From a virus, in IMG/VR virus record IMGVR_UViG_3300007734_000666, positions 1-38,454 of that record: DNA of 38,454 nt; one strand, 5' to 3'. Below the pieces are notes generated by a model. It did no database searches. It was not told where the DNA came from and saw nothing but the letters and a program-made list of their open reading frames with translations. Position numbers and translations under genes: made by a program. This document shows positions 8,206 to 28,668 of this stretch, piece by piece (the first letter of the stretch is position 1; each line of letters opens with the position of its first letter).

Positions 8206-8219
8206 CCGCCCCCCGGCGG
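8206..8219 (-). terminator. Weak GC-rich hairpin with short T run (attenuator?)
   Basis: On the minus strand CCGCC-GGGG-GGCGG is followed by GTTTT. It lies just after the 140-residue head protein gene and before the 58-residue gene. The T run is only four bases, so at most partial termination, which would keep head protein levels above neck protein levels. Confidence 0.35.
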
Positions 8220-8241
8220 TATTGCCAGAGGGCGGTAGTGC

Positions 8242-8664: not shown

Positions 8665-8695
8665 GATTGTTTCTCCTAAAGTGTTAAGTTGCCCC

Positions 8696-8708
8696 CGCGC
8701 TTAGCGCG
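8696..8708. repeat. Short hairpin downstream of coat gene
   Basis: CGCGC-TTA-GCGCG, in the 56-bp gap between coat and the 140-residue gene. No T run follows on either strand, so it is not a standard terminator; it might protect the coat mRNA 3' end. Confidence 0.4.
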
Positions 8709-8720
8709 AGAGCAGGTTGG

Positions 8721-9929: not shown

Positions 9930-9998
9930 TGTTCTATTCCTCTAAGGATGTTAGAAAGAAGATTCCACAATCACCAAACGCGGCGACTAGGAATTGTT

Positions 9999-10772
9999 TT
10001 AGCGGTTCCTCGCTTCCTGCTTTTTCACTTGTCTTGCTCTTTCAGCTTCGATCCATTGACTTGTGGTCATTGTTTTGATTGACCGTGGGTCTGTGGTGTC
10101 GTAGCCGCCGGAATGACCCCCGCGGGCGGTGACAGGCGAAATCGGCGCAGGTGCGCTAGATGTTCGTTTCGTTATTGGTTCAGAAGCGATCTTTGCTTCC
10201 AGTTTTCCTATCTCTTTGGCCTGCAAAAACGGGTCCGCAAGTCGGGCTATGCGGTCAGCTTCCTTGGGGTTTGTGCCGAGATAGTATGCAATATCAGGGC
10301 CGTTATCCGAGGCTTGAATCGTCTGGGCCATCACTTGGGTGATCGGTAGCTTGGGGTTGTACGCGACTTGTTCAAAGTCCTCGTACTTGCTCCGCGCATC
10401 CTCTTCCTTGTCGTGATAGTTCCCCAACAACTCCTGTTGCTGTTTCGCAAACTGTTGCTGCTGGACAATCTGCTGCGCCTTGGAAGTCGTCAATGCTTCA
10501 ACGTATTCCTCGGTCGTCGTAAACTGTTCCGGCTTGACATGCTCCACAGGGACGGGCTTTGGTGCTTCGGCCTGCCTTGCTTCGCGCTCCCACTTCCGTT
10601 GCTCTCTTGCAAGCCTCTTGCCGATGGCTGCGTCCAGATCCTCTTGGCTGAACAGCTTCGATTCCTTGACCTCACCTTCGGGTGCTGCTTCCGGCGCTGC
10701 TACTTCTGGGGCAGGCGCTGCCGTAGCGTCCTGTTCCGGCGCGGGTTGCTCCGCTATCACTTCTTCAGACAT
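9999..10772 (-). CDS. Capsid scaffolding protein (257 aa)
   Basis: Acidic, Ala/Pro/Glu-rich N-terminus (1-40), then a helical charged middle (AIGKRLAREQRKWERE, QQIVQQQQFAKQQQELLGNY) and a basic C-terminal end (ARQVKKQEARNR) of the sort that contacts coat protein. These features and its place just before the coat gene identify it as the assembly scaffold that directs procapsid formation and is then released. P22 gp8 is 303 aa. The AGGA ribosome site is close to the ATG. Confidence 0.8.
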   Translation of the reverse strand: MSEEVIAEQPAPEQDATAAPAPEVAAPEAAPEGEVKESKLFSQEDLDAAIGKRLAREQRKWEREARQAEAPKPVPVEHVKPEQFTTTEEYVEALTTSKAQQIVQQQQFAKQQQELLGNYHDKEEDARSKYEDFEQVAYNPKLPITQVMAQTIQASDNGPDIAYYLGTNPKEADRIARLADPFLQAKEIGKLEAKIASEPITKRTSSAPAPISPVTARGGHSGGYDTTDPRSIKTMTTSQWIEAERARQVKKQEARNR

Positions 10773-10815
10773 GGCTCGATTCCTGAGAATCCCTAGAGTG
10801 CCGCCCTAGTACGGT

Positions 10816-10956
10816 TCATTCCGATTTCGGTTCCACCTGGGACTGCGCTTGCAATTGAATCTTGGCAATCAATGCCTGCACTTGGACAAAAGGCATCTGC
10901 CCGAGTGCGCTAAGGATTCCGTTCACTTCCGCAAGCTCAAGTTGTAAGGAAATCAT
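10816..10956 (-). CDS. Tiny helical protein (46 aa)
   Basis: Starts MISLQLELAEVNGILSALGQ and continues with an amphipathic Gln/Leu-rich helix; ends VEPKSE. Its ATG overlaps the stop of the S74 fibre gene by 4 bases (ATGA), which supports real translation. Such short EVNxIL..LG proteins occur in other phage structural operons, with no known function. Confidence 0.6.
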   Translation of the reverse strand: MISLQLELAEVNGILSALGQMPFVQVQALIAKIQLQAQSQVEPKSE

Positions 10957-11924
10957 GCTGCCTCCAGTTTGGCGACTTTCGCCGCGAGTTCTTTAATTGC
11001 TGCGGCAAGCAGCGGTGTTATGCGTCCGTAGTCCATCTGCAACAGCACCTCGTCAGGCTCGCCTTTTCCGCTTACAGGGTATGGATAAACTTCGCGTAAT
11101 TCTTGTGCAATAAATCCATAATCTTGTTTTCCATCTTTTTTCCATACAAACGAGCGAGGTTGCACTTTTGCAAGAATATCCAGCGCACCCGTAAAATCTT
11201 GCACATCCTCTTTTAACCTGCCATCGGATGATGTGTTGTATGCAACCGTCGTAGCCGAAGCAACAGAAATGGAACCTATGGCTGACGCTTGCCCATCGGC
11301 ATCGTAAAAAGTGATGAATCTAGCGTTGGTCATATCGCTAGCGCCAGTCAACGCACATGTGAATGCCGTTGTAGCTGACGATGCCGTTGCGTTTGTATTC
11401 CGCACCTCTGCCATGTATGTGCCAGCACCCGATACAGAACCAGAAAAAATGTTTCCTCCTATTCCGTTGCCTGTGAACGTCCCCGTCGCACTCAACGTCC
11501 CAGTCACCGCAGTAGCGCCATTCATGTAGATCGTGCGGGTGCCGTCGCCAATACCGATCTGGTTCGTCGGTGCGCCTTGAGTCAGACCAATGAGCGAGTG
11601 ATAGGTCACCCCGTCCGTATTCAGTGCGCGGAGAACAGTGTTATTGGCGAGATTCACGTTACCCGTGAACGTCCCCGTCCCAGTCACCGCGACGTTACTG
11701 CTAAACGTCCCCGTCGTTGCCGAGAGAGCAGCAAGCGTACTTGCTCCGGTTACGCCGAGCGTCGTGCTGAACGTCCCAGACGTTCCCGCAACGGGCGATG
11801 TGCCATATGCCAAGATGTTCGCGGGCGTGATGCTGTAGTTGGCCCCCGAGCGAGCGATCGGGATAAGGTCGCCCGCTTGTGCGGGTGCGCCTGCTGCTAG
11901 TCCTGAGATCTTAGTGTCACTCAT
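10953..11924 (-). CDS. Tail-fibre-like protein with C-terminal S74 autoprotease chaperone (323 aa)
   Basis: Residues 1-40 form an N-terminal anchor (KISGLAAGAPAQAGDLIPIA). Residues 45-220 are a Thr/Gly/Ser repeat region of short beta strands, likely trimeric. Residues about 231-323 are a peptidase S74 intramolecular chaperone: TSSDGRLKEDV with predicted self-cleavage at Ser233, then ALDILAKVQPRSFVWKK, YGFIAQELREVYP and MDYGRITPLLAAAIKEL, finishing in a coiled coil. The chaperone trimerises the fibre and then cuts itself off. The gene is unusually placed, between portal-proximal genes and the scaffold, right after an HNH gene whose stop overlaps its start. Confidence 0.88.
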   Translation of the reverse strand: MSDTKISGLAAGAPAQAGDLIPIARSGANYSITPANILAYGTSPVAGTSGTFSTTLGVTGASTLAALSATTGTFSSNVAVTGTGTFTGNVNLANNTVLRALNTDGVTYHSLIGLTQGAPTNQIGIGDGTRTIYMNGATAVTGTLSATGTFTGNGIGGNIFSGSVSGAGTYMAEVRNTNATASSATTAFTCALTGASDMTNARFITFYDADGQASAIGSISVASATTVAYNTSSDGRLKEDVQDFTGALDILAKVQPRSFVWKKDGKQDYGFIAQELREVYPYPVSGKGEPDEVLLQMDYGRITPLLAAAIKELAAKVAKLEAA

Positions 11925-12363
11925 TGTCTTGTCTCCAAGAATGTTTTCGTGGATTGGTAAATAATGCTTTTTCTACAGACCATCCACGCCCATAAATTCT
12001 TTGGCGAACGGTGCTGGATTTGACGCCCGATGCGGTTATCCATTGCTCAAGCGTTTTAGTAATATCACCAATGGTTACCCATTTGTTTGTACGCCTGTTA
12101 TTTGCTTGTTCTTTACGAGTCGCCCAACGACAGTTTTCTTTAGCATAACTGGCGTCATTGTCTATTCGGTCAAGTGTTAGCCCCGGCAGATAGCCGTCTT
12201 TCATATCCTCGTAAAACGAGGCAAAAGAATGCCATTCATCACAAACTTTAATGCCCCTTGCCCCGTAGCGAAAATAGTCGGGATGTTTTGAGTTAGTTGT
12301 GCGATGTATCATGCAATACCAAAGATTCCGCATCGTATAGAAATTGTCGTCCCGTACTTTCAT
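11917..12363 (-). CDS. HNH-type homing endonuclease (148 aa)
   Basis: Residues 11-95 hold the phage HNH variant with YGARGIKVCDEW, LTLDRIDNDASYAKENCRWA and RKEQANNRR; residues 97-138 hold a small helical DNA-binding repeat (GDITKTLEQWITASGVKSS, then RGWSVEKALFTNP). The ATG at 12363 forms TGATG with the preceding stop; a GTG three bases earlier is an alternative start. Its end overlaps the start of the S74 fibre gene by 8 bases. It is on the same strand as the operon, unlike the HNH gene at 6761. AT-richer than neighbours, as expected for an invading gene. Confidence 0.85.
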   Translation of the reverse strand: MKVRDDNFYTMRNLWYCMIHRTTNSKHPDYFRYGARGIKVCDEWHSFASFYEDMKDGYLPGLTLDRIDNDASYAKENCRWATRKEQANNRRTNKWVTIGDITKTLEQWITASGVKSSTVRQRIYGRGWSVEKALFTNPRKHSWRQDNE

Positions 12364-12509
12364 CACGCTTCAAGCAATATAGTACTCACTCCATCCTCAA
12401 GCAGGATGAAGTTTGAGTCTTCCAACAAAAGATCCCCGCCCGCGTGAACGGCGTCCGGTCTCGCTTTGCGAAACCAGCACATCACCCGCGTGGCGTTGAG
12501 GACTATCAA
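12363..12509 (-). CDS. Small protein with Leu/Glu repeats (48 aa)
   Basis: Starts at a TTG whose last bases overlap the previous stop (TTGA), giving a protein that ends GDLLLEDSNFILLEDGVST plus ILLEA. A later ATG at 12482 would give 39 aa. The LLLED/ILLED repeats resemble [15 protein letters not shown] in the gp10-like protein, so both may share a beta-strand interaction element. Function unknown; start uncertain. Confidence 0.5.
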   Translation of the reverse strand: MIVLNATRVMCWFRKARPDAVHAGGDLLLEDSNFILLEDGVSTILLEA

Positions 12510-12811
12510 TTGAAGGGCTTCGTGTAGACGGTGCCGCCCGCGCTGATCTGGATAGCCGACACGCGCCAGGGCGCACCGGTCCCCGCGGGGACAGGGAACC
12601 ACATGGGCGTGTAGGACGGCACCGGCGTGTCCGCGGTGGTGGCCGTTACGGCCTCACCCACTTTGACGTACATGTCCGTCGTACCCCACACCATCACGGT
12701 AGACGCTCCGGGGTTGTACGCCGAGGTGACACCCGCCGTGCCGGTGTAGGACACGCTGTAGCCCGTCGTGGCTATCGGATCTCGGACTACGGAAAGACGG
12801 TCAGTTGCCAT
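12506..12811 (-). CDS. Small virion protein, unknown (101 aa)
   Basis: Thr/Val/Ala-rich, probably beta protein with VMVWGTTDMYVKVGEA and PMWFPVPAGTGAPWRVSAIQ elements, which I associate with small phage structural proteins of unknown role. Lies in a row of small genes between portal and the S74 fibre gene. A head or fibre accessory protein by context. Confidence 0.6.
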   Translation of the reverse strand: MATDRLSVVRDPIATTGYSVSYTGTAGVTSAYNPGASTVMVWGTTDMYVKVGEAVTATTADTPVPSYTPMWFPVPAGTGAPWRVSAIQISAGGTVYTKPFN

Positions 12812-12819
12812 GTGTTACC

Positions 12820-13182
12820 TCACGCCAAGAATTTTAGTTTGTACAGGGTGGACAGATACAGATCAACGATGTTGTCAATCAACTGTTGCAACGGCGTGTC
12901 CGTTTTGTCGCACACGTCATACCGCACCGACTCAATTTCTTTGAGCTGGTCTTCCAGAAATTCGATGATGTTGCTGGTCTTTTTGGCCGACATCAGCGTA
13001 ATGGGGCCGATCAGCCCGTTTCGGCCTTGATAGGCTTCGGCAAAAGCGTCCGCATGGTCAACGATGCCGTCGTAGAAGGTGTTCAACGCGCTGTGTTTGC
13101 TGAAGCTGCGAGTGTTCAAGTGAACGCTATGCGCCACGTCCCGCGCCAGAAACAAGAGTCCTACGAAGTCCGAGGCTTTCAT
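12820..13182 (-). CDS. Conserved helical phage protein (120 aa), DUF5856-like
   Basis: All-helical protein: VGLLFLARDVAHSVHLNTRS, then ALNTFYDGIVDHADAFAEAY, YQGRNGLIG and a long C-terminal helix. The paired His and acidic residues (H18, H21, E49-type positions) recall the ferritin/Dps-like helical proteins seen in many phage head modules (I believe DUF5856). Function not established. Its ATG overlaps the portal stop by 4 bases. Confidence 0.6.
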   Translation of the reverse strand: MKASDFVGLLFLARDVAHSVHLNTRSFSKHSALNTFYDGIVDHADAFAEAYQGRNGLIGPITLMSAKKTSNIIEFLEDQLKEIESVRYDVCDKTDTPLQQLIDNIVDLYLSTLYKLKFLA

Positions 13183-15413
13183 TGCGGCGCTCCCATCGGC
13201 ATGCCTTGCGGCGGCGGCATACCCGGCGGCGGCATCTGCTCCATGCCCTCTTGCGGCATGCCTTGCATCATGTCCTGCGGCATCATGTCTTGGTCACGCC
13301 CCGGCATCTCGCTGATCAGGTCGCCCGAGGTGATCATGCCATGCACGGTGCCAAGCACAATGTCTTGGATCTGCTCGGGCGTCATGCCCGCCTGCACCGC
13401 GCTGATCCGCTTGGTCTCGGCGTCGTAGGCTTTGACCTCGCTGTCGAACTGCTTGATCTTCAGCTCTTGGGCTTCCATCGATTGGCTGACGTTCTGCAGC
13501 ATCTGGTGCATCTGCTGCATCTCTTGGCCCATCGCTTGCATCTGCTGCTGCGCGGCAGCCAGCGCCGGGTCGTCCTCGTCGGACAACAGTTTCGGATCGA
13601 TCGTCTTGGCGAACCGTGCGGCCATCTCCTGCGCGCCCGGCCAGTCCATGTTTTTGATGAACAAGTCGCCGGCCACCGCCCACAGTTGCGGGTTGCCCTG
13701 CAACAGGCGCGACATGGCGTCCAGCGACTCCTGCCGCTTGGTCATGTAGCTCGGGCCGGTCGTCACCGCAACGTCGTACTTGCCGACGCCGGGGTTATAT
13801 ATCTTCTTGACGACGATGCCCTGCTCGTCAACTATCTTCTTGACCGGCATGGGCTGTGACGGGTCGATGGCCGCTTGGTCTGTCTCACCGTCAATGCCGA
13901 TGATCCGAGCAATGCGCTGCGTGTCGTAGATCTTAGGTATCAGGTCCACCAGTTGCCGGGTGCCGTACCGAATGGCTCGCGCAAGGTTGTCCACATAGTG
14001 GTAGGTGCCGGTGTCGGACTGCTTCTCGCGCGCGAGGATGGCCTTGCCCGATCGCTCGTTGCTGGTCGCCCCGAGACTGGAGTCGTACTGCCCGGTCGAA
14101 CTTTTGATGTCGTCCGACGCGCCGGCCTTCGCCTGGAGCAGTCCGCTGGAGGCCATCGGAGGCTGCGCCCGCTGCGGGAGCGGCAGCACGCCGCCCTGCC
14201 CATCGGTCACATCCGGGTTGACCTCAAGGTACGGCCAGTTGTTGATGTTGGCCGTCTTCCATTGGTTTTCGTAACCTTCAAACTGCCCGCCGTAGCCGAT
14301 GAATGGCGCTTTCGGGGCCAGCGCTAACATCTCTGCTTCTTGGCTAACCCAATAGTTGTACATCCGCTGCGCGTCCTTGGCGTTTCGCACCAGACCGCTG
14401 ACGTACATCCGGCCATCAATCTCAAATTCGTTGCCGATCACGCGGATGACGGGGATGTACTTGCCCGCCCAGTCGCGCTCCTCAAGCACCTCAAAACCGT
14501 TGGTCTTGCACCACTTGACCGTCCGAACGTCCACATCCCGCGTTTTGATAGGCGTCAGGCCCATCATTTCGGCTTGTTTTGCCTCGGGCGAACCCTTCAT
14601 GGCCGTGATGCCACCGTGGTACTGGTTCAGCGTCTTGGCTTCGTGCTTGATGTAGAAATACTCGGCAATCCGCACCGTGTCCTGGTTGATCCATGCGTTC
14701 AGTTGCCCGTCGCCCACGCCATAGGACAAGCTGGACAGGGTTGCCGCGTCGGGGAACTGGCGTTCGTACTCGTCTTTGGTGACTTCTTGGTTTATGAAGC
14801 ACCACTCGGCATCCGATCCGCACGGGTCTTGGATGGTGGGGTCCATGTAGACCGAGAACGAATCCCGAATGCGCCCAATCCGCAGATCCTGCTCAAAGGT
14901 GTTCTCGTCGCAGTATTCGGTCAGGATGCGGAAGTACCCCTCACCAAACGTCACTTGGTTGTCGCAGGCCGTGTCGTAGGCCACGTCCGCATCCGAGATG
15001 TACTCAATGTGACGCACGATGCCGTTGAATATCTCGGCGACCTCCACATCAGCCTTGTCGTCGGCGGGGATGACCTTGCCCGATGGCCTGTTTTGCCGCT
15101 GGTCGTTGGTCACTTGCAGCACATGCTGCGGCAGCTTGTTGATCGTCAGGCAGGGGCGTGCGTTGATCGTCTGACCTTGAACCGAGCCGCGGGTTGCCAG
15201 CACATCGGCGGGCCATTGCCATTGGTTGTCGGGTGAGGCTGCGCGGAAGCGAAGATCGTCCAACTCGTCTTCGCGGGAGTCCGAATACGCGGCGATCGCC
15301 ATTGTGAGGCGAGTCCGCATAGTGGCAAGCATGTCGCCGTTGTCACGGTCACGCTTGGTGCCGCCGCTGGATACGGCGCCGGCTTCGTTGATGCCCGTGT
15401 CCTGATAGGCCAC
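13179..15413 (-). CDS. Portal protein, P22 gp1-like (744 aa)
   Basis: Forms the dodecameric ring through which DNA enters and leaves the head. Recognised from the P22-type portal N-terminus: RASPDNQWQWPADV, GRPCLTINKLP-like element (NARPCLTINKLPQHVLQV), QRQNRPSGKVIPADD, then DVAYDTACDNQVTFGEGYFR and a SVYMDP segment. P22 gp1 is 725 aa. Residues about 605-665 form a Gln/Met-rich coiled coil like the P22 barrel, and the C-terminus is Met/Pro/Gly-rich. Starts with GTG sharing a base with the previous stop (TAGTG). Confidence 0.9.
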   Translation of the reverse strand: MAYQDTGINEAGAVSSGGTKRDRDNGDMLATMRTRLTMAIAAYSDSREDELDDLRFRAASPDNQWQWPADVLATRGSVQGQTINARPCLTINKLPQHVLQVTNDQRQNRPSGKVIPADDKADVEVAEIFNGIVRHIEYISDADVAYDTACDNQVTFGEGYFRILTEYCDENTFEQDLRIGRIRDSFSVYMDPTIQDPCGSDAEWCFINQEVTKDEYERQFPDAATLSSLSYGVGDGQLNAWINQDTVRIAEYFYIKHEAKTLNQYHGGITAMKGSPEAKQAEMMGLTPIKTRDVDVRTVKWCKTNGFEVLEERDWAGKYIPVIRVIGNEFEIDGRMYVSGLVRNAKDAQRMYNYWVSQEAEMLALAPKAPFIGYGGQFEGYENQWKTANINNWPYLEVNPDVTDGQGGVLPLPQRAQPPMASSGLLQAKAGASDDIKSSTGQYDSSLGATSNERSGKAILAREKQSDTGTYHYVDNLARAIRYGTRQLVDLIPKIYDTQRIARIIGIDGETDQAAIDPSQPMPVKKIVDEQGIVVKKIYNPGVGKYDVAVTTGPSYMTKRQESLDAMSRLLQGNPQLWAVAGDLFIKNMDWPGAQEMAARFAKTIDPKLLSDEDDPALAAAQQQMQAMGQEMQQMHQMLQNVSQSMEAQELKIKQFDSEVKAYDAETKRISAVQAGMTPEQIQDIVLGTVHGMITSGDLISEMPGRDQDMMPQDMMQGMPQEGMEQMPPPGMPPPQGMPMGAPQ

Positions 15414-15757
15414 TATTTACCTGCCCCGTAGGATTGAACGTCTTGTTCCATAATCTTGTGCATCCGTTGTTCAGCCGCTAGAGCGTCTTTGACCGATTTG
15501 TATTGCGGAAAATCTACGCCGCTTTTGGTTGCAAACTTCATCGCTTGCGGAACGTCCCGGATTTGACCGTGCCAATACGTCGGTAAGATCATGGCGCCGC
15601 CGCTTGGTGTATCCACAACAGAACCCATGAACGTAGTGGTTGAACCATCTGCATTCTTTAGCCCGGTGCCGCCGGTCAGGTGATTGCGATGATATTGCAA
15701 AGCCGCCTGCTCACCGGGCGAGAACTTTGAAATATCAACGAATGTCGGGTCAGCCAC
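15413..15757 (-). CDS. Conserved small protein upstream of portal (114 aa)
   Basis: Starts at a GTG that shares the last G of the upstream TAG, giving MADPTFVDISKFSPGEQAA. Contains LPTYWHGQIRDVPQAMKFA and a basic/acidic C-terminal helix (AEQRMHKIMEQD). I do not recognise a named family. Position between terminase and portal suggests a head assembly or virion role. The in-frame upstream ATG at 15796 would overlap the 56-residue gene by 40 bases and lacks support. Confidence 0.6.
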   Translation of the reverse strand: MADPTFVDISKFSPGEQAALQYHRNHLTGGTGLKNADGSTTTFMGSVVDTPSGGAMILPTYWHGQIRDVPQAMKFATKSGVDFPQYKSVKDALAAEQRMHKIMEQDVQSYGAGK

Positions 15758-15927
15758 TACTTTACCGCCTTCTGCACGTCGGCCCATAGCGCACACGGTA
15801 CGCCATCACGGTCCGTGACCTGCACCGCGCCGTGAGGCAGCGTAATCTCGCGGTCGTAGTGACGCCAGGTGTGGGTTCGGGGGCCGTACAGAGGTATCGC
15901 GTACCCAGCGGCGTACAGTTCATTCAT
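15757..15927 (-). CDS. Small protein (56 aa), unknown
   Basis: Starts [20 protein letters not shown] and ends [15 protein letters not shown] overlaps the stop of the 42-residue gene (ATGA) and its own stop overlaps the next GTG, so three genes are coupled. The [16 protein letters not shown] run suggests a small beta domain. No family recognised. Confidence 0.55.
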
Positions 15928-16052
15928 TTCTTGGCTTTACGTTTGACCGAGTACGCAATGGCAACCGCCTGCTTCACGGGTTTGCCCGCGGCGACCTCGG
16001 TCTTGATGTTCTTGCGAAATGCGGTTTTGCTAGGCGACTTGACGAGAGGCAT
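15924..16052 (-). CDS. Tiny basic conserved phage protein (42 aa)
   Basis: [20 protein letters not shown], then [19 protein letters not shown]. This short pattern (KSPSK-A---NI--E---GKP-KQA-AIA-S--RKA) is widespread in tailed phages near terminase or portal genes; function is unknown. Highly basic, so perhaps nucleic-acid binding. Confidence 0.75.
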
Positions 16053-16054
16053 GG

Positions 16055-16309
16055 TCAGCACTTCCATCGTTTAAGGGATGCTTTGGCTCGTTCGCCGTCC
16101 TTGGCATGTGCCGCTACTGCGCCCATCCGCGCGCAAAATGACGCTTTGCGCCCTTTATCGGCCTCTGTCTTGGGGTTAGGCGCGGGCGCCTTGAGGTTGC
16201 TGCCCGTGGCAGCGTTGTACTTGGCTCGGCCCTTGGCCGTCAGGCCGGCGCCTTGGCTGACCGGCAACTTCTCACCCCGCCCCACAGATAACGACACGTT
16301 TTTCTTCAC
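16055..16309 (-). CDS. Conserved phage protein, DUF6321-like (84 aa)
   Basis: Contains [38 protein letters not shown] and a C-terminal [20 protein letters not shown] followed by KRWKC. This pattern is a widespread small phage protein (I believe DUF6321) found beside the large terminase; role unknown. Starts with GTG one base after the TerL stop. Confidence 0.75.
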
Positions 16310-16310
16310 G

Positions 16311-17828
16311 CTAGCTACCCATCCATGAGTTGGTTACGCTGGCGTGGTGCGACGCCGTGCGCCGGGCGGGTTCCCGATACTCGCGGTGCGCGACGGGGAA
16401 CGCGAAAGTCACCGCAAGCGCGTCGGCTGCATCCGGTGAAGCTAACCCTCTGCTACGCATTTCCTTCTTTCCTTCAAGGAAAATCGTACCGCTACTGTTA
16501 GGCTTCTTCATGGGGCCGGTCAGATCCGCTTTCATCTGCCGATCCTCCGGTATGCTGGCCGTTTTCAGCCAGTCCTTCATCGTACCCCACATCTCGGCGC
16601 GCTTGTTGCCCCACATAACCGAGTTCTTGGCTTTCCAGCCGAAGTTTACGCCTCGTACCTTGTACCGCTGTTCCGTGAGCCTGTCAAGTATCCCGTATCC
16701 GAGGCCACCTTCGTCGATTACTGACAGGGTTGGCTTGTACTCCTCAATGGCGTCGATCACCCGGCCCACAATCGTCATGGTGTCCTCGCCCGAGTACCGT
16801 TTGACGGCGATCAGGTCGCGGCCCTGGCGTACCGCGATGACGGTCGAGTCGGCCCCGCCGCGGGCCGGGTCGATGCCCAGTACGATGGGGGCGGTGGAGT
16901 CCTTCCATCGCTCGCGTTTTGATGCGTCATCCACCAGCATCGCCGAAATGAACTGGTCTTCACCCGCGTCGGGAAACTCACCGTACACCTCCACCTTGGC
17001 TTGCGGAGAATCTTCGCCGTACTCGGCAATAATCTGCTCGTAGACCTGCTTGTCGGTGTCCTCGACCGTGCGTGCGTCCACGGTGCGGGTGTTCCAGAAG
17101 GCTCTTTTGGCGTGAAAACACTCAAAAAAGTACCCTTCGTTGCGCCGCGGGTTGCTGAACGCAAACCAGTACCGGTCGGGGGTGTTTTCGGTGAAAAACC
17201 CCGCTCCGACCTCCCATATAGGGTTGGGAATACCGGATGACTCGTCAAATATGAGCATCATCCCGTCTTGGTTGTGGACGCCCGCGTAGCTGTCGGGGTT
17301 CTCAGCCGACCACAGCTTGCCCTCGGCTGCCCAGTACCGCGTACCTTTCTTCAGATCCCGCTCGACCAACTCGCACAGCCATTGCGCCGGCACCAGCTTG
17401 GTCGCGCTGATCTCAAACCAATGGTTGTTGATCGCCATCGCCGACCACTTGGTCAGCTCGGCCCACGTCACCGAGCGCAACTGGTTCTCCGAGTTGGCGC
17501 TGATGACCACGCTCCCGCCGATGCGGGTGGTCAGCATCCACAGCACCAGCCAACTCACTAAGGCTGACTTGCCGATGCCTCGCCCGGATGACACCGCCTC
17601 CCGCAACGTGGACATGTCCACCTGGTTGTTCTTGATGTGCGTCTTGATGTCGCGCAGCACCTCGCGCTGCCACTTGCGCGGCCCGGTAAATTTTGCTAAA
17701 GGTGTGTTCTTCTGGCCCCACGGGAACGCGAAGAGGACGAACGCCTCGGGGTCGTCCGCCAGCGCGGGCGACCACAGCTCGACCATCAGCCGCTGTTCCT
17801 CGTCCGATGTGTAGATGGGCGTTTGCAT
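16311..17828 (-). CDS. terL: Terminase large subunit (505 aa)
   Basis: DNA packaging motor and headful nuclease. ATPase: Walker A SSGRGIGKSA (about residues 80-89), Walker B MLIFDESS (D195, E196), coupling region SNPRRNEGYFFECF. Nuclease: GIDPARGGADSTV (Asp320), VIDEGGLGYGI (Asp372, Glu373) and SPDAADALAV (Asp466, Asp469). I chose the ATG at 17828 because it overlaps the upstream stop (TAATG) and follows AAGG; an in-frame TTG at 17852 would add eight residues. All key residues are present. The late operon begins two genes upstream. Confidence 0.93.
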   Translation of the reverse strand: MQTPIYTSDEEQRLMVELWSPALADDPEAFVLFAFPWGQKNTPLAKFTGPRKWQREVLRDIKTHIKNNQVDMSTLREAVSSGRGIGKSALVSWLVLWMLTTRIGGSVVISANSENQLRSVTWAELTKWSAMAINNHWFEISATKLVPAQWLCELVERDLKKGTRYWAAEGKLWSAENPDSYAGVHNQDGMMLIFDESSGIPNPIWEVGAGFFTENTPDRYWFAFSNPRRNEGYFFECFHAKRAFWNTRTVDARTVEDTDKQVYEQIIAEYGEDSPQAKVEVYGEFPDAGEDQFISAMLVDDASKRERWKDSTAPIVLGIDPARGGADSTVIAVRQGRDLIAVKRYSGEDTMTIVGRVIDAIEEYKPTLSVIDEGGLGYGILDRLTEQRYKVRGVNFGWKAKNSVMWGNKRAEMWGTMKDWLKTASIPEDRQMKADLTGPMKKPNSSGTIFLEGKKEMRSRGLASPDAADALAVTFAFPVAHREYREPARRTASHHASVTNSWMGS

Positions 17829-18223
17829 TACTGACCTTGCATTCTTAGCCAATCAGATTGCGTTGCCCCTACCGCATCGGGGTTGTTACCCGTGGCTCGC
17901 ATGTAATCTTCTTTCCACGCGGTGGGGTGTGTTTTGGATTTCAACATGGTTCCGTCCGGTGTTGACGAAGCCCAATGAAAACGATTTGAATCGTAGGGGT
18001 CGCGTTCTGGTCGGATACCCATTCGCCACGCTTGACGATAATCATAGTTTGCCGAGGTACTTAGGTCCGGTTCTTCGCCGTATTGTTTTACAAACTCCGA
18101 AAACCACGGCGTTGCGCGGATGCCGCGTTGAAACCGTATTTCTTCTCCTTGCGCGGCAATATTAGGATTCATCCTAGCCGCGAGGAGGTTGACCGGATCT
18201 TCGGGGGACAGATAGTTAGCCAC
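17828..18223 (-). CDS. Hypothetical protein between terminase genes (131 aa)
   Basis: Starts at GTG 18223, overlapping the end of the small terminase by 8 bases, giving MANYLSPEDPVNLLAARMNP. Aromatic and Trp-rich C-terminal half (TPWFSEFVKQYGEEP, YDYRQAWRMGIRP, FHWASSTPDGTML). Looks like a folded small domain of unknown function. An internal ATG at residue 18 is an alternative start. Position between terS and terL suggests a packaging link, unproven. Confidence 0.6.
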   Translation of the reverse strand: MANYLSPEDPVNLLAARMNPNIAAQGEEIRFQRGIRATPWFSEFVKQYGEEPDLSTSANYDYRQAWRMGIRPERDPYDSNRFHWASSTPDGTMLKSKTHPTAWKEDYMRATGNNPDAVGATQSDWLRMQGQ

Positions 18224-21492: not shown

Positions 21493-21527
21493 AAAAAAGG
21501 GGCGCCTACGGGCGCCCTTTTTTTTTT
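21493..21527. terminator. Bidirectional rho-independent terminator
   Basis: A6 run, GGGCGCC (21500-21506), TACG loop, GGCGCCC (21511-21517), T10 run. The A and T runs make it work on both strands: it ends the plus-strand early operon (last stop 21481) and the minus-strand replication operon, whose last stop lies at 21526-21528. Confidence 0.9.
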
Positions 21528-23823
21528 ACTTGACCGCGGCGAGAGTAGGCAAGCGCCCGGGCGGCGGCGCCTCGACCATCCTGCGGAGATCGGACTTGCT
21601 CAGGTGCCGCAGGTGCGGCGCGCAGAATATATGCTTCTTCGTCCCCAGGCCCACGGCGCCGAGGCGCCCGCAGTCCTGCCAGCCGGCCTCCTTCAGCGCG
21701 TGCAGCAGCGCCTGTTGCGGTATCTTGACGCCCCCCGGCGCGCCACCCGTCAGGCGATCGCAGAGGGAGTGGAACGGCGAGCCGATCACGCCGGCGGCGA
21801 ATTCGCCCGCGCCCGTGCGGAGCAGTTCGACCAAATAACTCTCGGCCATGCTCATGCCGTGCTCGATCAAGTTCAATTTGAATTCGGTCATGGCGGGGGC
21901 GGCGGCGGGGTTGAAGCGGGACACGTCCCGGCGGGCGAGCCAGCCCGTGCAAGCGGCGAACCCGCCAGCCCTGTACCAGTCCCAAAGGCGGGCGGCGGCG
22001 ACCGGGTCCATGCGGGCAGCAGCGGACCACACGGCGAACCAGCGGCGGTCCTGCGTTGCCAGGCTGATCGGCACCGGGTCGTTGCTGAACGCCAGGACGA
22101 AGCACCGGTTGACCATCAGGTAAGGCGCAAGCCCTTTGCGGTTGATCGGGAGCATCTCGGGCGGGGCGGCGATGATCGGCTTCAGCTTGTTCGCCAGGGC
22201 CCGGCGCTCGCGGGCGTCGGGTTCCTTCAGTTCGTTCAGAAGGATAATCTCGGCCTCGAGTTGGTATCCCCATTGCGAGCCTAGCGTGTCGTTGTCCAGA
22301 ATGCCGCGGTTGCGGTGGGACGGTCCGCAGACGGCCCAGAGAAGCGGCGCCCACATGGTGTCCTTGCCGCAACCCTCGTCGCCACCGTGCAGAACGGCGT
22401 GGTTGATCTTGGTATTGGGGTGCTGGTACTTGTGCGCCATCACATCGAGGATATGCTCGCGCTCGGCCACGATCGGGACCAAGGCGGCGCAATGGTCAAG
22501 CCACGGCGTCACATCCCCGGCGCCGGCGGGCTGGCGGGCGTCGCGCCAGCGGTTGCCGAACACGTCCCCGTCGCGATGGCAGAGGACGGTCTCACCCGCG
22601 GCGTAGGTGATCCCGACCAAGGCGGGGGCGCCCTTCGATTGCCGGTTCTCGTCAAAGCAGACGCTGGCCTCGACCTTGCGGTCGTTGTGGATCGACTTGC
22701 ACGACACATGCCGGTACAAGGCGTTGAAGGTCGCGCGGGACACCTCGCGGCGGTCGATCAGGTCGAAGTACGATTCGTCGTCTTGGATATAGGCGAACCG
22801 CTCGTACCAGCCGGCCTTCTCGATCCGGCCAAGCTCGCGGCGCTGCACCTCGGCGATCGTCGCGGCGGCGTCCGACTCGGGCCGGAACAGGTCGCCGGGG
22901 GTCAGCTTGGCAAGCGCAGGCTCCATGATCGCGGCGAGCAGTTCCTCGCGCAGGCCCGAGGAATGCTCGGGACCGCCCTCCTCGGCCACCCAGGCCAAGA
23001 ACGCGGCGCTGGCGAAGTCAACGCAATGCGAGTGCAGGCAGCAGTAGGACCGGGTCGCGGGCATGTAGCGGCCCTCGGGGTTGCCGTCGGTATGCTCGGC
23101 GGCGTGGGGGCAGATGACCCCGGCCCACCCTTGGGCGTTGGGGTGCGACAGCACAAGGCCACGCTCGGCGAGCCAACCGAACACGTCATCGCCTCCGTCA
23201 TCGGCAATGCGGACGGGGCGGGGACTGGCGGCGTCCGCAGGGCCGGGGGTCACGTCCAAGGCGGCGCATATCTCCTCCAAGGTGAACTCGCGCTCGGGGT
23301 GGAACTCGGTCAGGACGGCGGCGAACTCGCCCCGGCCCGGCTTGAGGTTGACCGATCCCGGCAGCCGGAAGTTACTCACCGGGTTGCAGGCGCCGGGGTC
23401 CGTGTAGCCGGCCTCCGCAATTGCGCGGATGGCGGCGGCGAACTCGCCCCGGCCCGGCTGGATCCGGAACACATAACCGTACTGGAAGTTACCCGGCGAG
23501 GTCTCGATGATCCACGTCGGGGCGAGGGACGGCACTTTGCTCTTGGTCCCCACGTCGTCCAGCACCAAGACCAGCACATACTCGCAATGGGCGGCGGCGG
23601 CGCTCGGTCGGCCGTCGGTAAAGCGGTCGATGATGAAGCTGGCGGTGTTGCCGTACCAGGCCTCGCCGGGCTTGATCTTGTGCGTGGGGAGGAACGCCGG
23701 CCAGACGCACTTGATGGCGCCGTCGGCGTGGTACTGCAGCACCTTGCCGACCGGCTTCTGCCGTACGATCAGCGCCGTCTCACCCGCCGGGGCCAGCCCG
23801 GCGAAAAACTCCAGAAAATTCAT
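21526..23823 (-). CDS. Primase-helicase, RepB-like primase plus SF3/DUF5906 helicase (765 aa)
   Basis: Residues about 80-175 resemble the RepB-type primase fold (LVLDDVGTKS, TWIIETSPGNFQYGYVF, NFRLPGSVNLKPG). Residues 238-267 hold Cys/His pairs (C238, H240, C261, C262, H264, C267), a likely zinc site. Residues about 455-640 are a superfamily 3-type helicase: Walker A GGDEGCGKDT (480-489), Walker B ILLNELKE, then NRCFVLAFSNDPVPI and DRRWFAVW. Known analogues are the primase-helicases of phage NrS-1 type. It would prime and unwind for the PolA enzyme, whose stop it overlaps by 4 bases. Confidence 0.82.
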   Translation of the reverse strand: MNFLEFFAGLAPAGETALIVRQKPVGKVLQYHADGAIKCVWPAFLPTHKIKPGEAWYGNTASFIIDRFTDGRPSAAAAHCEYVLVLVLDDVGTKSKVPSLAPTWIIETSPGNFQYGYVFRIQPGRGEFAAAIRAIAEAGYTDPGACNPVSNFRLPGSVNLKPGRGEFAAVLTEFHPEREFTLEEICAALDVTPGPADAASPRPVRIADDGGDDVFGWLAERGLVLSHPNAQGWAGVICPHAAEHTDGNPEGRYMPATRSYCCLHSHCVDFASAAFLAWVAEEGGPEHSSGLREELLAAIMEPALAKLTPGDLFRPESDAAATIAEVQRRELGRIEKAGWYERFAYIQDDESYFDLIDRREVSRATFNALYRHVSCKSIHNDRKVEASVCFDENRQSKGAPALVGITYAAGETVLCHRDGDVFGNRWRDARQPAGAGDVTPWLDHCAALVPIVAEREHILDVMAHKYQHPNTKINHAVLHGGDEGCGKDTMWAPLLWAVCGPSHRNRGILDNDTLGSQWGYQLEAEIILLNELKEPDARERRALANKLKPIIAAPPEMLPINRKGLAPYLMVNRCFVLAFSNDPVPISLATQDRRWFAVWSAAARMDPVAAARLWDWYRAGGFAACTGWLARRDVSRFNPAAAPAMTEFKLNLIEHGMSMAESYLVELLRTGAGEFAAGVIGSPFHSLCDRLTGGAPGGVKIPQQALLHALKEAGWQDCGRLGAVGLGTKKHIFCAPHLRHLSKSDLRRMVEAPPPGRLPTLAAVK

Positions 23824-26528
23824 TTACTGTATCTCCGCATGGTTTTCACATCTATGGCCAAGGGCAATCCCTCGGCCCATGCCGGCGCTTCGCACATCGC
23901 TTGCCTCATGGCAGCGGTGGCGGCGTCCGGGTCCGTTGTTTCCACGACAATTTCATCGTGAATGTGCAGCACCACGCCCTCCAGCCGGCGCAAGGCATGC
24001 CGGAGGACATCGTTCGCTGTTGCCTGTGTCACGTTCTCGACTGCTAGGCCCCGCCAAAGCCTTGCCCGCGGCCACTCCGCGGCATCGGCGGCGGGCTTCC
24101 ACGCGGCCTTGAGATAGGACACGCCGTCAGTCTCAAGGCGGGCGAACGGGTAGCACAGCACCCGGCCCGAGGGCAGCATGTACCACAGATGCTGGCCGTC
24201 GAACAGGTACGTCACCCGGCCCGCGGTGAACTCATGGCCCACGTTCCGCATGGCGCGGGTATAGGCACCCTCCAGATCTTGGCCGTGCTTCATGGCCCAC
24301 GGGTTGGCACCGCGCCACAGACGGATGGCGCGGGGGACGTTATCGATCTGCACACCGTACACCCGGCCAAAGGTGTCGAACGATCCCTCGCTACCGAGGA
24401 AACCTAACGCGAGTTCCTGAACCTTCCCGCATTGACGCTGCATGTCGGTCACGGCATCATAGGCCACGCTGAAGGTCGCCATCGCGTTGACCTTGTACGG
24501 GTCCAGCCCCGAGCGGAACACGTCAAGTTTCGCCTCGCCCGCGGGGCAGTTGGACAGCCACGGGTTGACACGGCCCTCGATCGAGGACCAGTCGGCCACC
24601 ACCAGCGCATGGCCGGGGGCGGGGATCAGCGCGGGGCGCAGCATGCCCTTGAGCACGTCGGTCACCCGGCGCCCGTAGGCGGGGACGATCTTATGCCCGC
24701 GCACCATCGCCTCGCGCACGGCCTCGGGGTCGCGTGCGGTCTTGCGGGTAAAGTTGTGGACCTGCGCTCCGTAGGAAGAATTGTGGTGCACTAATCCTTG
24801 CGCGCAGTAGCTAGCATCTCCATCAACTGTGATGTCCCAAACTCCCTTTTCTCCCACGCATACAATTTCTGCAATTTCTGCAAATGAAGTGCTTGATGCC
24901 CACTCGACGTGACTATAGCTAGGTTGTTTAAGCTGTTGTTCAGTGTATTTGAATCGATGTGATGCACTTCCCATCCCAGCGGCCACTGTGCCAGCCCAAG
25001 CGTTTCCATTAGCACCAGACGATGCTCTGGCGCGTACCGGCTTTCCTTGTGCTGCCACAAGTACCGATACCCCCGCCGCAGTATCGCGGCCACTTGCTTT
25101 CGTACTCCAAACATGGGGTTCTTCTCCCCCATCTTTGCTGCGTGATGGTTGGCCGAGCGCAGTACCTTTAGCCTGTCTTTCGGAACATCCTCCCGCAATA
25201 TCCGATATACCGTAGCCTGCGTCATCCGCGTTGTTGCAGCGATCTCGGTGCCTGGTAAATAGGGCGGGGTTGTATATAGCCGCACGACTTCCGACCGTAT
25301 AGCCGGGTCGCGTAATGCCTTCAGACTGATGCTCATGTTTTGTCCATCCAGATTGTGTAAGTAGCTGATGGTCGGCGGTGCATTCAACCCACTCACCGCT
25401 GCGGGTGGTCACGCGGTACATGGTTTCCCTGCCCTTGTAGACCTTGCCGGACACTTTACACAATCGCCCCGTATGCGTCAAAACTTTCTCGCCTATTTGC
25501 AGCAGAAAAATAGGTGCCCGGCCATGCTCTGTCTCCACTAGCGTAGTGGCTTCCACACATGCCCGCCCCGTGGCGCTGCCGCCGGCAAAGACGAACGCGC
25601 CGCGCACCCGGTCATCCTCGGTGTCAGCGAGATCCGAGAGGCGCTTGAACTTGGCAACAGACGACGCCCACAGATCGTCGGCGCATTGGATCACGTCGGC
25701 CACAGGCCCCGGCACCTCGTCGGGGTTCTCCTCGGCCAAGGCCAGCAGGTTGGCGCGGACCGACTTGTCGATGGAGTACTTCTCGCCGGTCCACATGAGC
25801 TTGACGGCCTCGGGGCCGACACGGTCCTGCACCCATTGGCGCATCTTGGGCGAGCGCACGGAGGTGACAGCACCGTCGGTCACCTCGCGCACGATCTGCT
25901 CGATCTCGATCAACTCGGCCTCGGCGTAGGTCATGGCAGCATGGCAGAGGTCGGTGTCCACCAGCACACCGCGGTCGTTGATGCGCTCGTTCACATGGTA
26001 GTCGGCGAGTTCCTCATCGGACAGCGGGCGCAGCGACTTGCTGATCTCGCGCATGGCCCTGACATCCTGCTCGCAGTAAGCGACGAATTCGGCCATCAGG
26101 GTCGGGTCGTTGTTGAAGGTGCCATCAGCGCGGGGGAGGGACAGCAAGCGGATCAGTTGCGAGCCGCGGTGGTCCTTCTTCATCTTGCTCGACACGGCGC
26201 GGCCCACGTCTTCCAAGCTGCCGGGGAGGCAGTTGGCACGCGCTTGCGCCGCAGTACAATAGAACTGTTCCAACTTTGGTTCGGGGATTCCTACGTCCGG
26301 GCATAGGACGTACCAGAATATCAACCGTTCAAACGCGGCGTTGTGCGCCATGATCTGATGGTCGCCGATCTCGGGGAAGGGCATGCCCGGTAGCCATGTC
26401 CTGACTGGCTCATCGTCAAAGGCGTAGGACATGCACAGCACCTCGGTGCTGGCATCCTGCGCGTAGTTGTACACGCCGCGACGGGGTAGGTCGCAGCGTG
26501 ATCGGGTCTCAAAATCAAGCCAGATCAC
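23820..26528 (-). CDS. Family A DNA polymerase with intein (902 aa precursor; ~642 aa spliced)
   Basis: Replicative polymerase. Residues 1-165 form a 3'-5' exonuclease: WLDFET (Asp5, Glu7), AHNAAFERLIF and YCEQDVRAM. After the intein (324-583), the polymerase domain has motif A VVADWSSIEGR (Asp646), motif B around RQCGKVQELALGFLG and motif C LHIHDEIVV (His857, Asp858). Host sequence around the intein reads ATGRA then SSYGAQVHNFTRK, matching the TGR...QNF primer-template motif. GTG start with strong AAGGAGG site. Spliced product has all catalytic residues. Confidence 0.92.
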   Translation of the reverse strand: MIWLDFETRSRCDLPRRGVYNYAQDASTEVLCMSYAFDDEPVRTWLPGMPFPEIGDHQIMAHNAAFERLIFWYVLCPDVGIPEPKLEQFYCTAAQARANCLPGSLEDVGRAVSSKMKKDHRGSQLIRLLSLPRADGTFNNDPTLMAEFVAYCEQDVRAMREISKSLRPLSDEELADYHVNERINDRGVLVDTDLCHAAMTYAEAELIEIEQIVREVTDGAVTSVRSPKMRQWVQDRVGPEAVKLMWTGEKYSIDKSVRANLLALAEENPDEVPGPVADVIQCADDLWASSVAKFKRLSDLADTEDDRVRGAFVFAGGSATGRACVEATTLVETEHGRAPIFLLQIGEKVLTHTGRLCKVSGKVYKGRETMYRVTTRSGEWVECTADHQLLTQSGWTKHEHQSEGITRPGYTVGSRAAIYNPALFTRHRDRCNNADDAGYGISDIAGGCSERQAKGTALGQPSRSKDGGEEPHVWSTKASGRDTAAGVSVLVAAQGKPVRARASSGANGNAWAGTVAAGMGSASHRFKYTEQQLKQPSYSHVEWASSTSFAEIAEIVCVGEKGVWDITVDGDASYCAQGLVHHNSSYGAQVHNFTRKTARDPEAVREAMVRGHKIVPAYGRRVTDVLKGMLRPALIPAPGHALVVADWSSIEGRVNPWLSNCPAGEAKLDVFRSGLDPYKVNAMATFSVAYDAVTDMQRQCGKVQELALGFLGSEGSFDTFGRVYGVQIDNVPRAIRLWRGANPWAMKHGQDLEGAYTRAMRNVGHEFTAGRVTYLFDGQHLWYMLPSGRVLCYPFARLETDGVSYLKAAWKPAADAAEWPRARLWRGLAVENVTQATANDVLRHALRRLEGVVLHIHDEIVVETTDPDAATAAMRQAMCEAPAWAEGLPLAIDVKTMRRYSK
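24780..25559 (-). other. Intein in DNA polymerase (260 aa, Cys324-Asn583)
   Basis: Protein-splicing element. Block A CVEATTLVETEHGRAPIF with Cys1; block B ECTADHQLLT (T-x-x-H); block F GVWDITVDGDASYCAQGL; block G VHHN with penultimate His and terminal Asn; the +1 residue is Ser584. All class 1 splicing residues are present. The region between block B and block F (about residues 405-545) has no intein endonuclease motif and looks like a translated shadow. A free HNH gene occupies this DNA in another frame. Confidence 0.93.
24791..25336 (-). CDS. HNH homing endonuclease nested out of frame inside the intein (181 aa)
   Basis: Same strand as the polymerase but in a different frame. Starts MSISLKALRDPAIRSEVVRL; helix-turn-helix about 15-48 (EIAATTRMTQATVYRILRED); NUMOD3-like ANHHAAKMGEKNPMFG (62-77); HNH core 104-151 with EHRLVLMETLG, GWEVHHIDSN, NNLAIVTSSGHQALH (H125, H126, N138, H147). 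The ATG at 25336 has a weak GGATGG site; an in-frame GTG at 25396 is possible. Its stop TAG (24791-24793) lies within the codons for the intein's last residues. A complete gene with all HNH residues. Confidence 0.88.
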   Translation of the reverse strand: MSISLKALRDPAIRSEVVRLYTTPPYLPGTEIAATTRMTQATVYRILREDVPKDRLKVLRSANHHAAKMGEKNPMFGVRKQVAAILRRGYRYLWQHKESRYAPEHRLVLMETLGLAQWPLGWEVHHIDSNTLNNSLNNLAIVTSSGHQALHLQKLQKLYAWEKREFGTSQLMEMLATARKD

Positions 26529-26540
26529 GCTGCTGCCTCC

Positions 26541-27194
26541 TTACGCTACAGCCCGACGGCGACGGCCCGCGGGTGCGGGTGCCGGCTCTTCCACCACCGG
26601 CGCGGGGGCGGGTGCCTCCGCTTCGGCGTCAAGGCTCATCCACTCGTCGATCGAAAAGACCGGCGTGAAAATCTTGCCGTACGACTTGTGCTGGTAATGC
26701 TCAACCAGCAACGTCACCACCGGCACCGGCTTCGTCGGATCCGCTTCGACTTGCTCGGCGATCGCCAGAGCCAGAGTCTGGACCGCACGCTTGCCACCGA
26801 CGCTGGTGCTGCTGAACCGCGCTTCCATGCCCTTGTCTTCACCGGACATGCACTTGAGGCTCAACCCGACCTGAGTCTCCCAACCCTTCTTGGCACCGGG
26901 AGGCGCCACGTCGAGTTCCGGCAGCGGTTGTGACACCGACACCATTTTCTCACCCAATACCTCACCGTCGCCCCATGCGATGGAGCCATGCACGAACGAG
27001 AACGGGTTGACGGCCCAGACGCTGCCGTCCTCGATCTCGGTCTGGTCTGCACCGAACACCCAATGGCCGGTTTTGTCCATCTTGAGGATGACCGTGCCGG
27101 CGGGGCCGACATCCGACTCCAGCTTGCGAAGGGCCGTGGAGAGTGACTGCACGGAGGGAAGACCTGCTTGCGAAAAAACTGCGATATTGGACAT
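26541..27194 (-). CDS. Putative ssDNA-binding or recombination accessory protein (217 aa)
   Basis: Beta-rich protein with SVWAVNPFSFVHGSIAWGD, GWETQVGLSLKCMSGEDKG and THLVEHYQHKSYG-like strand (VVTLLVEHYQHKSYGKIFTP), then a Pro/Ala/Glu linker and a basic GRRRRAVA tail. It lies between the nuclease and polymerase genes, the usual place of a phage single-strand binding protein. No acidic C-terminal tip as in bacterial SSB. Assignment by position and composition; I do not recognise the family with certainty. Good AAGGAA site. Confidence 0.5.
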   Translation of the reverse strand: MSNIAVFSQAGLPSVQSLSTALRKLESDVGPAGTVILKMDKTGHWVFGADQTEIEDGSVWAVNPFSFVHGSIAWGDGEVLGEKMVSVSQPLPELDVAPPGAKKGWETQVGLSLKCMSGEDKGMEARFSSTSVGGKRAVQTLALAIAEQVEADPTKPVPVVTLLVEHYQHKSYGKIFTPVFSIDEWMSLDAEAEAPAPAPVVEEPAPAPAGRRRRAVA

Positions 27195-27205
27195 TACTTT
27201 ATTCC

Positions 27206-28303
27206 TTAGACAAGTTTAGAAAGGGCGGCGGTCAACTGCTGCCCGATTAACAACACCGCTGGCCTCGGATCAGACTCCGGTGCCAACGTATCGCCCGACG
27301 AGACTGACACCGTCAGTCCTTCGGGCAGATTCTTGATTTTCTTCTCCGCTTGCGCGGGTGAGAGCAGTTCCTTCTTGAACGGGTCGATGCCCAATTCGGA
27401 CAGGACCGCGGCAGCTTTGGCCTCATCCACCCACTTGCGTGTGCCGCGCTTGGCGACCAGTTTCCATCCCGGCACCTTCGCGCCCGCCTTGAGCTTAGTC
27501 TCGACCAGTTCGTTGATCGAGTCAATCCAACCTTGCAACAGGACAGCATTGGCCGCATACGCGCCTAGCATGTCGTTGTCCACCGCGTCAAGGTTGACCT
27601 TGAGCGCACGGTCCACCGCGCCGGTCATCTGGGGACAGGTCGGCTTCGCCGGGCAGAAGCGGCAATGCGGGCCGGTGGCGAGCTTCGCCTCGGGCAACGC
27701 CGACGCCTTGACCGCGCGCTTGAGGTCGCGCTCAAACTGCTTGATGCGGGCGGGTGTGGTCTCCCATTGGCGCAGCACCGGCGGCTGGATGATGGCGCAG
27801 ATGATCTTCGTTGCGCCGTCGAAGACCCACGCGGATTCCTTTGTTCGCATGGCCGCGGCTGCGTAGTACATGAGCTGCTCGTTGTCCTCCGCGCTCACCG
27901 CGATGCCGTCCCCGAACTTCCAGTCGATGACGTAGGCCGTCTCGCCGATGCGGCCCAACAGGTCGCAGGATCCGAAGGCACCGGGCAGGTAACTGCCAAA
28001 GCCCACACGGGTCTCGACTGCCATCTGCATCCGGCGATCGGGGTCCAGTTCGTCCAGCAGGTCGAGCGCCGGCTGGACCTTGTCGTCGAACATGTCTTGG
28101 TCGAGCGTGTGACCTTCGTAGGTCGTGCCGATCACGTTGTCCTCACCGAGGAGGTACTCGCTGATCGCGGTGTGCAGCAACGTTCCTTTGTCGGCGTAGG
28201 TGCTGGAGGGCATCACGGGCGCTCGGGCAACAAGCGCCACGGAGCCAGGGCAGGCCATCACGCGCTTGGCGGTGCTGCCGCCGACGACGGTTGAGTGCTT
28301 CAT
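27206..28303 (-). CDS. Cas4/RecB-like PD-(D/E)XK exonuclease, DUF2800 family (365 aa)
   Basis: Nuclease for phage recombination or host DNA breakdown. Catalytic residues seen: His44 (LLHTAISEYL), Asp114 (GSCDLLG), Asp127 and Lys129 (VIDWKFGDG). Four Cys, C18 (MACPGS) with C214, C217 and C223 (CRFCPAKPTC), form the Fe-S staple typical of AddB/Cas4-type nucleases. The ATG at 28303 overlaps the previous stop (ATGA) and follows AGAGGAG. C-terminal about 120 residues are helical and poorly conserved. Confidence 0.85.
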   Translation of the reverse strand: MKHSTVVGGSTAKRVMACPGSVALVARAPVMPSSTYADKGTLLHTAISEYLLGEDNVIGTTYEGHTLDQDMFDDKVQPALDLLDELDPDRRMQMAVETRVGFGSYLPGAFGSCDLLGRIGETAYVIDWKFGDGIAVSAEDNEQLMYYAAAAMRTKESAWVFDGATKIICAIIQPPVLRQWETTPARIKQFERDLKRAVKASALPEAKLATGPHCRFCPAKPTCPQMTGAVDRALKVNLDAVDNDMLGAYAANAVLLQGWIDSINELVETKLKAGAKVPGWKLVAKRGTRKWVDEAKAAAVLSELGIDPFKKELLSPAQAEKKIKNLPEGLTVSVSSGDTLAPESDPRPAVLLIGQQLTAALSKLV

Positions 28304-28668
28304 GCGAACTCCTCTTCTGCGTATTCGGTGGCAAGATCCGCAACCCAATGCGAGTCACGCAGATGCTCGGTGAGCAAGGCCACAACACTCTTGCGCTCAC
28401 GGTCGCGGCGGTTCTCAAGTGCCGTGTCGTTGCTGCTCAAGCTGGCAACGTACATCTCTGCCGCGTACGAGGGATCGCGATTATCAAGCAGATAATCGTA
28501 GAGGTCAAACTGGGCACGTCCGTTTTTCGGGTACTGACCGTACTCAAGTATGGTCTCGATCACTTCGATCAACGCCAGTTCGTAATGCCGCGGCGTTGGT
28601 TGCTTGGGCGAGAAGCCTTGCAGGGGACCGCATACGCTGCAGTCGGTGGCACCGCACATGCATTTCAT
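28300..28668 (-). CDS. Small protein with N-terminal Cys cluster (122 aa), unknown
   Basis: Starts MKCMCGATDCSVCGPLQGFS: four Cys in twelve residues, a zinc-ribbon-like or metal site. Rest is helical and acidic (LALIEVIETILEYGQYP, DLYDYLLDNRDPSYA) and ends ATEYAEEEFA. First gene of the replication operon, ribosome site AAAGGAC. Upstream ATGs in frame have no ribosome site. Role unknown; could be a regulator. Confidence 0.6.
   Translation of the reverse strand: MKCMCGATDCSVCGPLQGFSPKQPTPRHYELALIEVIETILEYGQYPKNGRAQFDLYDYLLDNRDPSYAAEMYVASLSSNDTALENRRDRERKSVVALLTEHLRDSHWVADLATEYAEEEFA

Follow-up and report, generated by a model that had tools for sequence, protein, structure and literature searches.

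Mobile inteins are classically divided into bifunctional ones, which carry an in-frame nuclease, and mini-inteins that have no nuclease. A different kind of insertion has been described under the name of ShiLan domain, in which an out-of-frame HNH gene leaves the host frame open; it is patchy and mobile, and the study that describes it found that the domain splices neither as an intein nor as an intron (PMC11855218). Elements of this type were the only related concept found in our literature search, an earlier mention being possible. In addition, the public record of APSE-1 already annotates P46 (HNH endonuclease) as overlapping P45 (DNA polymerase), and the same search, with the same proviso, found no text that presents this pair as an overprinted homing endonuclease. 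The locus analyzed here belongs to a bacterial virus (IMG/VR record IMGVR_UViG_3300007734_000666), and the window is the whole stretch of 38,454 nucleotides. The best explanation for it is a splicing mini-intein with a homing endonuclease independently translated from an overprinted gene, a reading to which we assign a probability of about 0.87. A first-pass annotation of the same DNA had proposed overprinted dual coding within a contiguous intein, with the nuclease freed from the precursor. The proposal survives, since many assemblies keep both frames, each under its own selection; separate translation is what we infer.

The host gene, at 23820-26528 on the minus strand, as are the intein and HNH features described below, codes for a precursor of 902 aa that comprises exteins and intein and is a phage DNA polymerase of family A (PF00476). 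Its nearest named relative, MW202483 (Manatee Spring), has no intein. Over 2118-17852 and 21526-28348, the window also encodes portal, major head and head closure proteins, a terminase, a primase and an exonuclease. The intein is contiguous, of class 1 and 260 aa long, and runs from the codon at 25559 (Cys1) to the codon at 24780 (Asn260), i.e., 24780-25559, inserted at ATGRA/SSYGAQ (the slash marks the insertion point) within the polymerase context ...GGSATGRA/SSYGAQVHN... The insert reads CVEATTLVETEHG...TADH...GVWDITVDGDASYCAQGLVHHN, and all the class 1 residues anticipated by the first-pass annotation (Cys1, TADH in block B, the HHN end and +1 Ser) are in place and in frame with the polymerase; across 12 copies of the intein, the splicing residues are invariant. 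A profile search gave a match to TIGR01445 above its cut-off, and one to Pfam Intein_splicing with E=3e-7, yet under the gathering score. The N-terminal splicing half (blocks A and B, residues 1-75) lies at 25335-25559 and the C-terminal half (blocks F and G, residues 223-260) at 24780-24893, while the linker between them (residues 76-222) covers 24894-25334. In the AlphaFold2 model, residues 1-75 and about 224-260 come together in a Hint fold predicted with confidence (pLDDT of 81-92 across residues 1-70, dropping toward residue 75), and the linker is predicted to be disordered. By both sequence and predicted structure, the best matches to the Hint halves are the DnaB, gp41-1 and DnaX mini-inteins. 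As had also been claimed, no endonuclease domain is found in the intein's own frame, which sets it apart from canonical bifunctional inteins; the continuous polymerase frame sets it apart from split inteins, where host gene and intein lie in two ORFs, and the complete splicing blocks from ShiLan-type insertions, which have no splicing domain in the host frame. A group I intron instead of an intein was also considered and is countered by the uninterrupted host frame and the intein residues. Rfam gave no match for a group I ribozyme core here, nor for the annotated polA introns used as positive controls.

The nuclease appears on the same strand, in the +1 frame relative to the polymerase, where a complete HNH gene of 181 aa plus stop extends over 24791-25336, just as the first-pass annotation had placed it. 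Most of the protein is thus coded over the linker, and its tail shares the codons of the C-terminal splicing half down to 24791. A longer version starting at a GTG (24791-25396) is also available, but the relatives conserve the ATG start at 25336. The HNH_3 core (HRLVLM...WEVHHID...NNSLNNLAIVT...H, 24893-25024) is significant (E=3e-9, above the family cut-off), and PHROG HNH families were matched as well. The HTH and NUMOD3-like parts that had been proposed along with this core fared less well: HTH_23 (E=0.0045) and NUMOD3 (E=0.06) both fall under the Pfam cut-offs, and so these labels are weak. In the structural model, an N-terminal helical part is followed by a beta-beta-alpha HNH core and a C-terminal tail of low confidence (pLDDT about 50). 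The nearest solved protein by sequence is the homing endonuclease I-HmuI, a weak match (E=0.04), and Foldseek with the HNH model found no significant whole-protein match. HNH catalysis and target specificity are given here as predictions. The gene ends, as expected from the first-pass annotation, within the final splicing block: its TAG stop (24791-24793) falls in the Leu-Val codons that precede HHN, 11 nt ahead of the intein end, a distance kept in 10 of 10 close copies. The sharing of codons between the C-terminal region of the HNH protein and the final splicing block holds for blocks F and G. It is most extreme at 24807-24854, where almost all bases are invariant and GEKGVWDITVDGDASY in the intein frame overlies the HNH tail around WEKREFGTSQLMEMLA. 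Across the whole of the HNH gene, the polymerase frame stays open, the ORF at 23820-26528 being uninterrupted.

GC-rich DNA often contains long overlapping ORFs, and there are several in the ORF list of the window, so the HNH ORF might be spurious, an accidental echo of intein codons. We used a synonymous-shuffle test in which one protein is kept fixed, its codons are permuted and the stops are counted in the other frame. In the window, the intein frame stayed open in 1.1% of the shuffles when the HNH protein was fixed, and the HNH frame in 0 of 3000 when the intein was fixed. Among the polA copies, fixing the HNH protein adds 3-12 stops on average to the intein frame, and fixing the intein adds 2-5 to the HNH frame. 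The real sequences have zero stops in both frames at 34 of 34 tested loci (28 polA and 6 of the terminase types described below), against shuffle means of 1-13; in the terminase types, the test is weaker with HNH fixed (P up to 0.29) and strong with the intein fixed. Synonymous and nonsynonymous change was also compared in both frames by a four-class substitution count over nine close copies, a check suggested by the first-pass annotation, and purifying selection was found separately for each frame, with dN/dS ratios that are approximate because some distances are near saturation. In the N-block, the intein has a dN/dS of 0.18 [0.10-0.27] (range 0.13-0.19) and the would-be HNH frame one of 0.80. 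Over the linker, the HNH frame has a value of 0.07 [0.05-0.14] (range 0.07-0.15) and the intein frame is near neutral, at 0.94 [0.77-1.19] (range about 0.7-1.4). Where F/G and the HNH tail overlap, both are constrained (0.35 [0.16-0.75] for the intein and 0.16 [0.08-0.28] for HNH). The near pairs (window-L010 and L018-L020) gave the same pattern. Strong selection on HNH only in the linker makes the intein-frame linker a tolerated by-product, and the residues that it conserves echo the HNH core. In the intein frame, 12% of the third codon positions are invariant over the N-block, but 65% over F/G and as many as 82% over the GEKGVWDITVEGDASY core; this freezing of third positions is the mark of a stretch that is read twice. 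An accidental ORF would also have to account for the HNH_3 match, for a dN/dS near 0.1, for homologous stand-alone genes in phages and for the fact that the same DNA conserves the HNH frame above the intein frame (60-86% versus 41-65% identity in close relatives). The shuffles and dN/dS rule it out as a chance product, and we give it next to no probability.

The same arrangement was sought in other polA inteins, and it is common. Scanning IMG/VR with the HNH query and, separately, with the intein query recovered the same contigs. In these close relatives, both frames are open over their full length, and the third frame of the intein contains 8-30 stops. A broader scan reached more distant polA lineages, with HNH identities as low as about 30%. 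At least 33 polA contigs besides the window (34 with it) have an intein with an HNH gene of this type, always in the +1 frame; most are metagenomic contigs from uncultivated viruses, and L127 and L136 are cut by contig ends. Outside IMG/VR, a scan of cellular genomes with query A1 gave no match and one with query A6 a single 18-residue core match (L181). No relative was found in plasmids, and phage records searched with the HNH of the window gave no direct relative; those in phage records were reached by way of L007, L133 and the terminase types alone. In two of the 34 polA contigs, L147 and L148, an HNH of this family and frame carries an additional HTH domain, and the insert is at a neighboring polA site (NLQQ/CPS). 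Two polymerases (L126 and L138) have second inteins downstream in the same ORF with apparent in-frame endonucleases, HNH-like in L126 and LAGLIDADG-like by eye in L138, so that overprinted and in-frame intein types can coexist in one polymerase. Microcystis phage Mvi-JY20 (L028, 2501-2900) has a polymerase mini-intein of ~130 aa near the same motif with a nuclease in no frame, which is a possible ancestral state.

These relatives bear on two further explanations. In-frame HNH inteins do exist (L186, L168 and the second intein of L126), and sequencing or assembly frameshifts could have displaced one such ordinary domain, in which case there would be no overprinting at all. However, the offset is common to dozens of independent contigs, each of which would need two compensating errors, the two frames are under selection of their own, and HNH extends through the C-terminal splicing blocks themselves. 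Relatives in which stops break either frame had been named as a reason to abandon the idea; instead, both frames are kept across many independent assemblies, which refute a sequencing frameshift as the cause of the two frames, and the chances of such an error are vanishingly small. Otherwise, the intein could be dead or in decay and the HNH a passenger acquired recently, with the polymerase frame open by chance, as the near-neutral linker would allow. One relative, L134, has apparently lost the block A region and is possibly decaying, with both frames still open. A dead intein is nevertheless very improbable, given the invariant splicing residues, the low dN/dS of the N-block, the constraint on F/G and the polymerase frame without stops in dozens of copies. 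The double coding is thus due neither to chance nor to sequencing error.

How the nuclease would be made is indicated by the region around its start. An SD-like core precedes the HNH start in 19 of 25 polA copies, against an in-phase background of 16% (0 of 100,000 simulations). In the window, it is a GGATGG (25344-25349), weak and not scored as positive in this test, and in most close relatives AAGGATGG or AGGATGG. The start codon itself, which is ATG, GTG or TTG depending on the copy, falls at the same place in the alignment. Alternatively, ribosomes translating the polymerase frame could shift into the HNH frame in a programmed manner, so that N-extein and N-intein would be fused to HNH and no free nuclease would arise, and the same strand and the fixed +1 frame of every polA copy fit with this idea. 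Yet in several copies the HNH frame extends only a few codons ahead of the start before meeting a stop (none in L145), which leaves little room for frameshifting, no common slippery motif was seen by eye near the start, and the aligned starts and SD-like cores also speak for internal initiation. We consider frameshifting unlikely, if less so than the explanations discussed above.

The intein-HNH element has the distribution expected of a mobile one. Of the C-extein relatives, the nearest 80, at 66-89% identity, are without exception empty at exactly the intein site, and in the extein tree the occupied state needs seven changes, at least four of them forced by well-supported branches. Occupied and empty alleles are tree neighbors, as in L010 beside L041 and L002 beside L115. 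Patchy presence and empty target alleles, as for HNH homing endonucleases, are therefore both observed. In some empty alleles (L036, L039 and L041), the junction is followed by Ala in place of Ser; Ala would be unable to support splicing there, so the +1 Ser may arrive with the intein. In cultured phages, the outside relatives of the HNH occupy annotated introns in, or interruptions of, the polA gene (L030-L035), within about five codons downstream of the intein site and at the same TGR-x-S motif, as if one nuclease lineage had been moving between intron and intein vehicles. The C-terminal tails of these intron-borne HNHs (TTISKES...) are unlike the one overprinted on F/G, which suggests that the latter arose from intein codons.

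Taken together, the data point to a mobile intein whose endonuclease would be a complete gene over the linker and C-terminal splicing blocks rather than an in-frame domain. The polymerase would be made as a precursor, from which the Hint fold (residues 1-75 and about 224-260, with the disordered linker) would excise itself and ligate the polymerase, judging from conserved residues, selection and fold. The HNH protein would be a second translation product of the same mRNA, initiated at a ribosome-binding site and start codon of its own. Patchy distribution and endonuclease family suggest that it cuts intein-free polA alleles near the conserved TGR-x-SS motif, after which recombination may copy the intein into the cut allele. 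Both frames would stay open because the persistence of the element needs both products, and the F/G codons, common to both proteins, would have their synonymous positions frozen too.

The arrangement is not unique to the window; besides this large family, there are two other types. In one of them, the intein interrupts the large subunit of the terminase and is overprinted with a different HNH in the other relative frame. It was found in three metagenomic contigs (L151, L153 and L169) and in Tetrasphaera phage TJE1, Acinetobacter phage Highwayman and Rhodobacteraceae phage LS06-2018-MD07, the host proteins being confirmed as terminases. Their HNHs are split from those of polA by a 100/99 branch and intermingled with stand-alone HNH genes. 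The third type is a second intein of the L021 polymerase (L021:6510-7049), inserted at the ENVTQAT site of polA, whose +1 frame encodes an HNH of the phrog_374 type; further cases are those of APSE-1 (P45/P46), Shewanella phage SFCi1 and Caulobacter phages RW, RLK, KcrB and GB2A. Through these types, the design extends to cultured phages that differ in host and frame. The overprinted design is real and appears to have evolved repeatedly, with both messages intact in dozens of related and unrelated viruses. Since host sites, frames and HNH families differ, the three types appear to have independent origins. It seems reasonably probable that phages have in such overprinting, of a homing endonuclease on a splicing intein that remains contiguous, a general solution with at least three independent origins (polA TGR, polA ENVTQAT and terminase; two frames; different HNH families), selected for separating nuclease expression from the host precursor, and that in the lineage of the window the HNH tail was made from F/G codons. 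If true, this would be a third widespread architecture, and many phage mini-inteins deemed nuclease-less may still be mobile, misjudged because annotation reads one frame only. The overlap is also a strong natural case of same-strand overlapping genes, with separable protein roles and selection measurable per frame. It illustrates how compact linkers can pack two functions into the same DNA, and it links group I intron and intein nucleases at one conserved polymerase motif.

Compared with known systems, the polA group I introns with HNH (PhAPEC7, PPWS1, Pf-WMP3 and Providencia PS3, plus the interrupted polA of APK32) hold the closest outside relatives of the HNH and, like the locus analyzed here, interrupt polA in the TGR-x-S motif, there a few codons downstream, and have a nuclease gene apart from the host frame. 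Unlike at that locus, their host frame is broken, removal takes place at the RNA level and the C-terminal tails are different. Canonical in-frame HNH inteins (CL131 dCTP deaminase, L168) also combine intein and HNH, but their nuclease is a domain of the same-frame precursor. The DnaB, DnaX and gp41-1 mini-inteins are alike in the Hint splicing fold, and no nuclease gene is known in their linker. ShiLan insertions have in common with the window the out-of-frame HNH and the open host frame, while only the intein of the window has the full class 1 blocks, themselves dual coding. The APSE-1 group likewise combines a polA intein with an HNH gene that lies within it in the +1 frame, but at another site (mostly ending HN/C-E-N) and with another HNH family (phrog_374 being the best match in the second intein of L021). 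The claim that the arrangement had not been described before thus stands in part: non-splicing out-of-frame HNH genes are published (PMC11855218) and the overlap annotated in APSE-1 limits the novelty, and what is new is that dual coding is demonstrated, how broadly it occurs and that it includes the splicing blocks.
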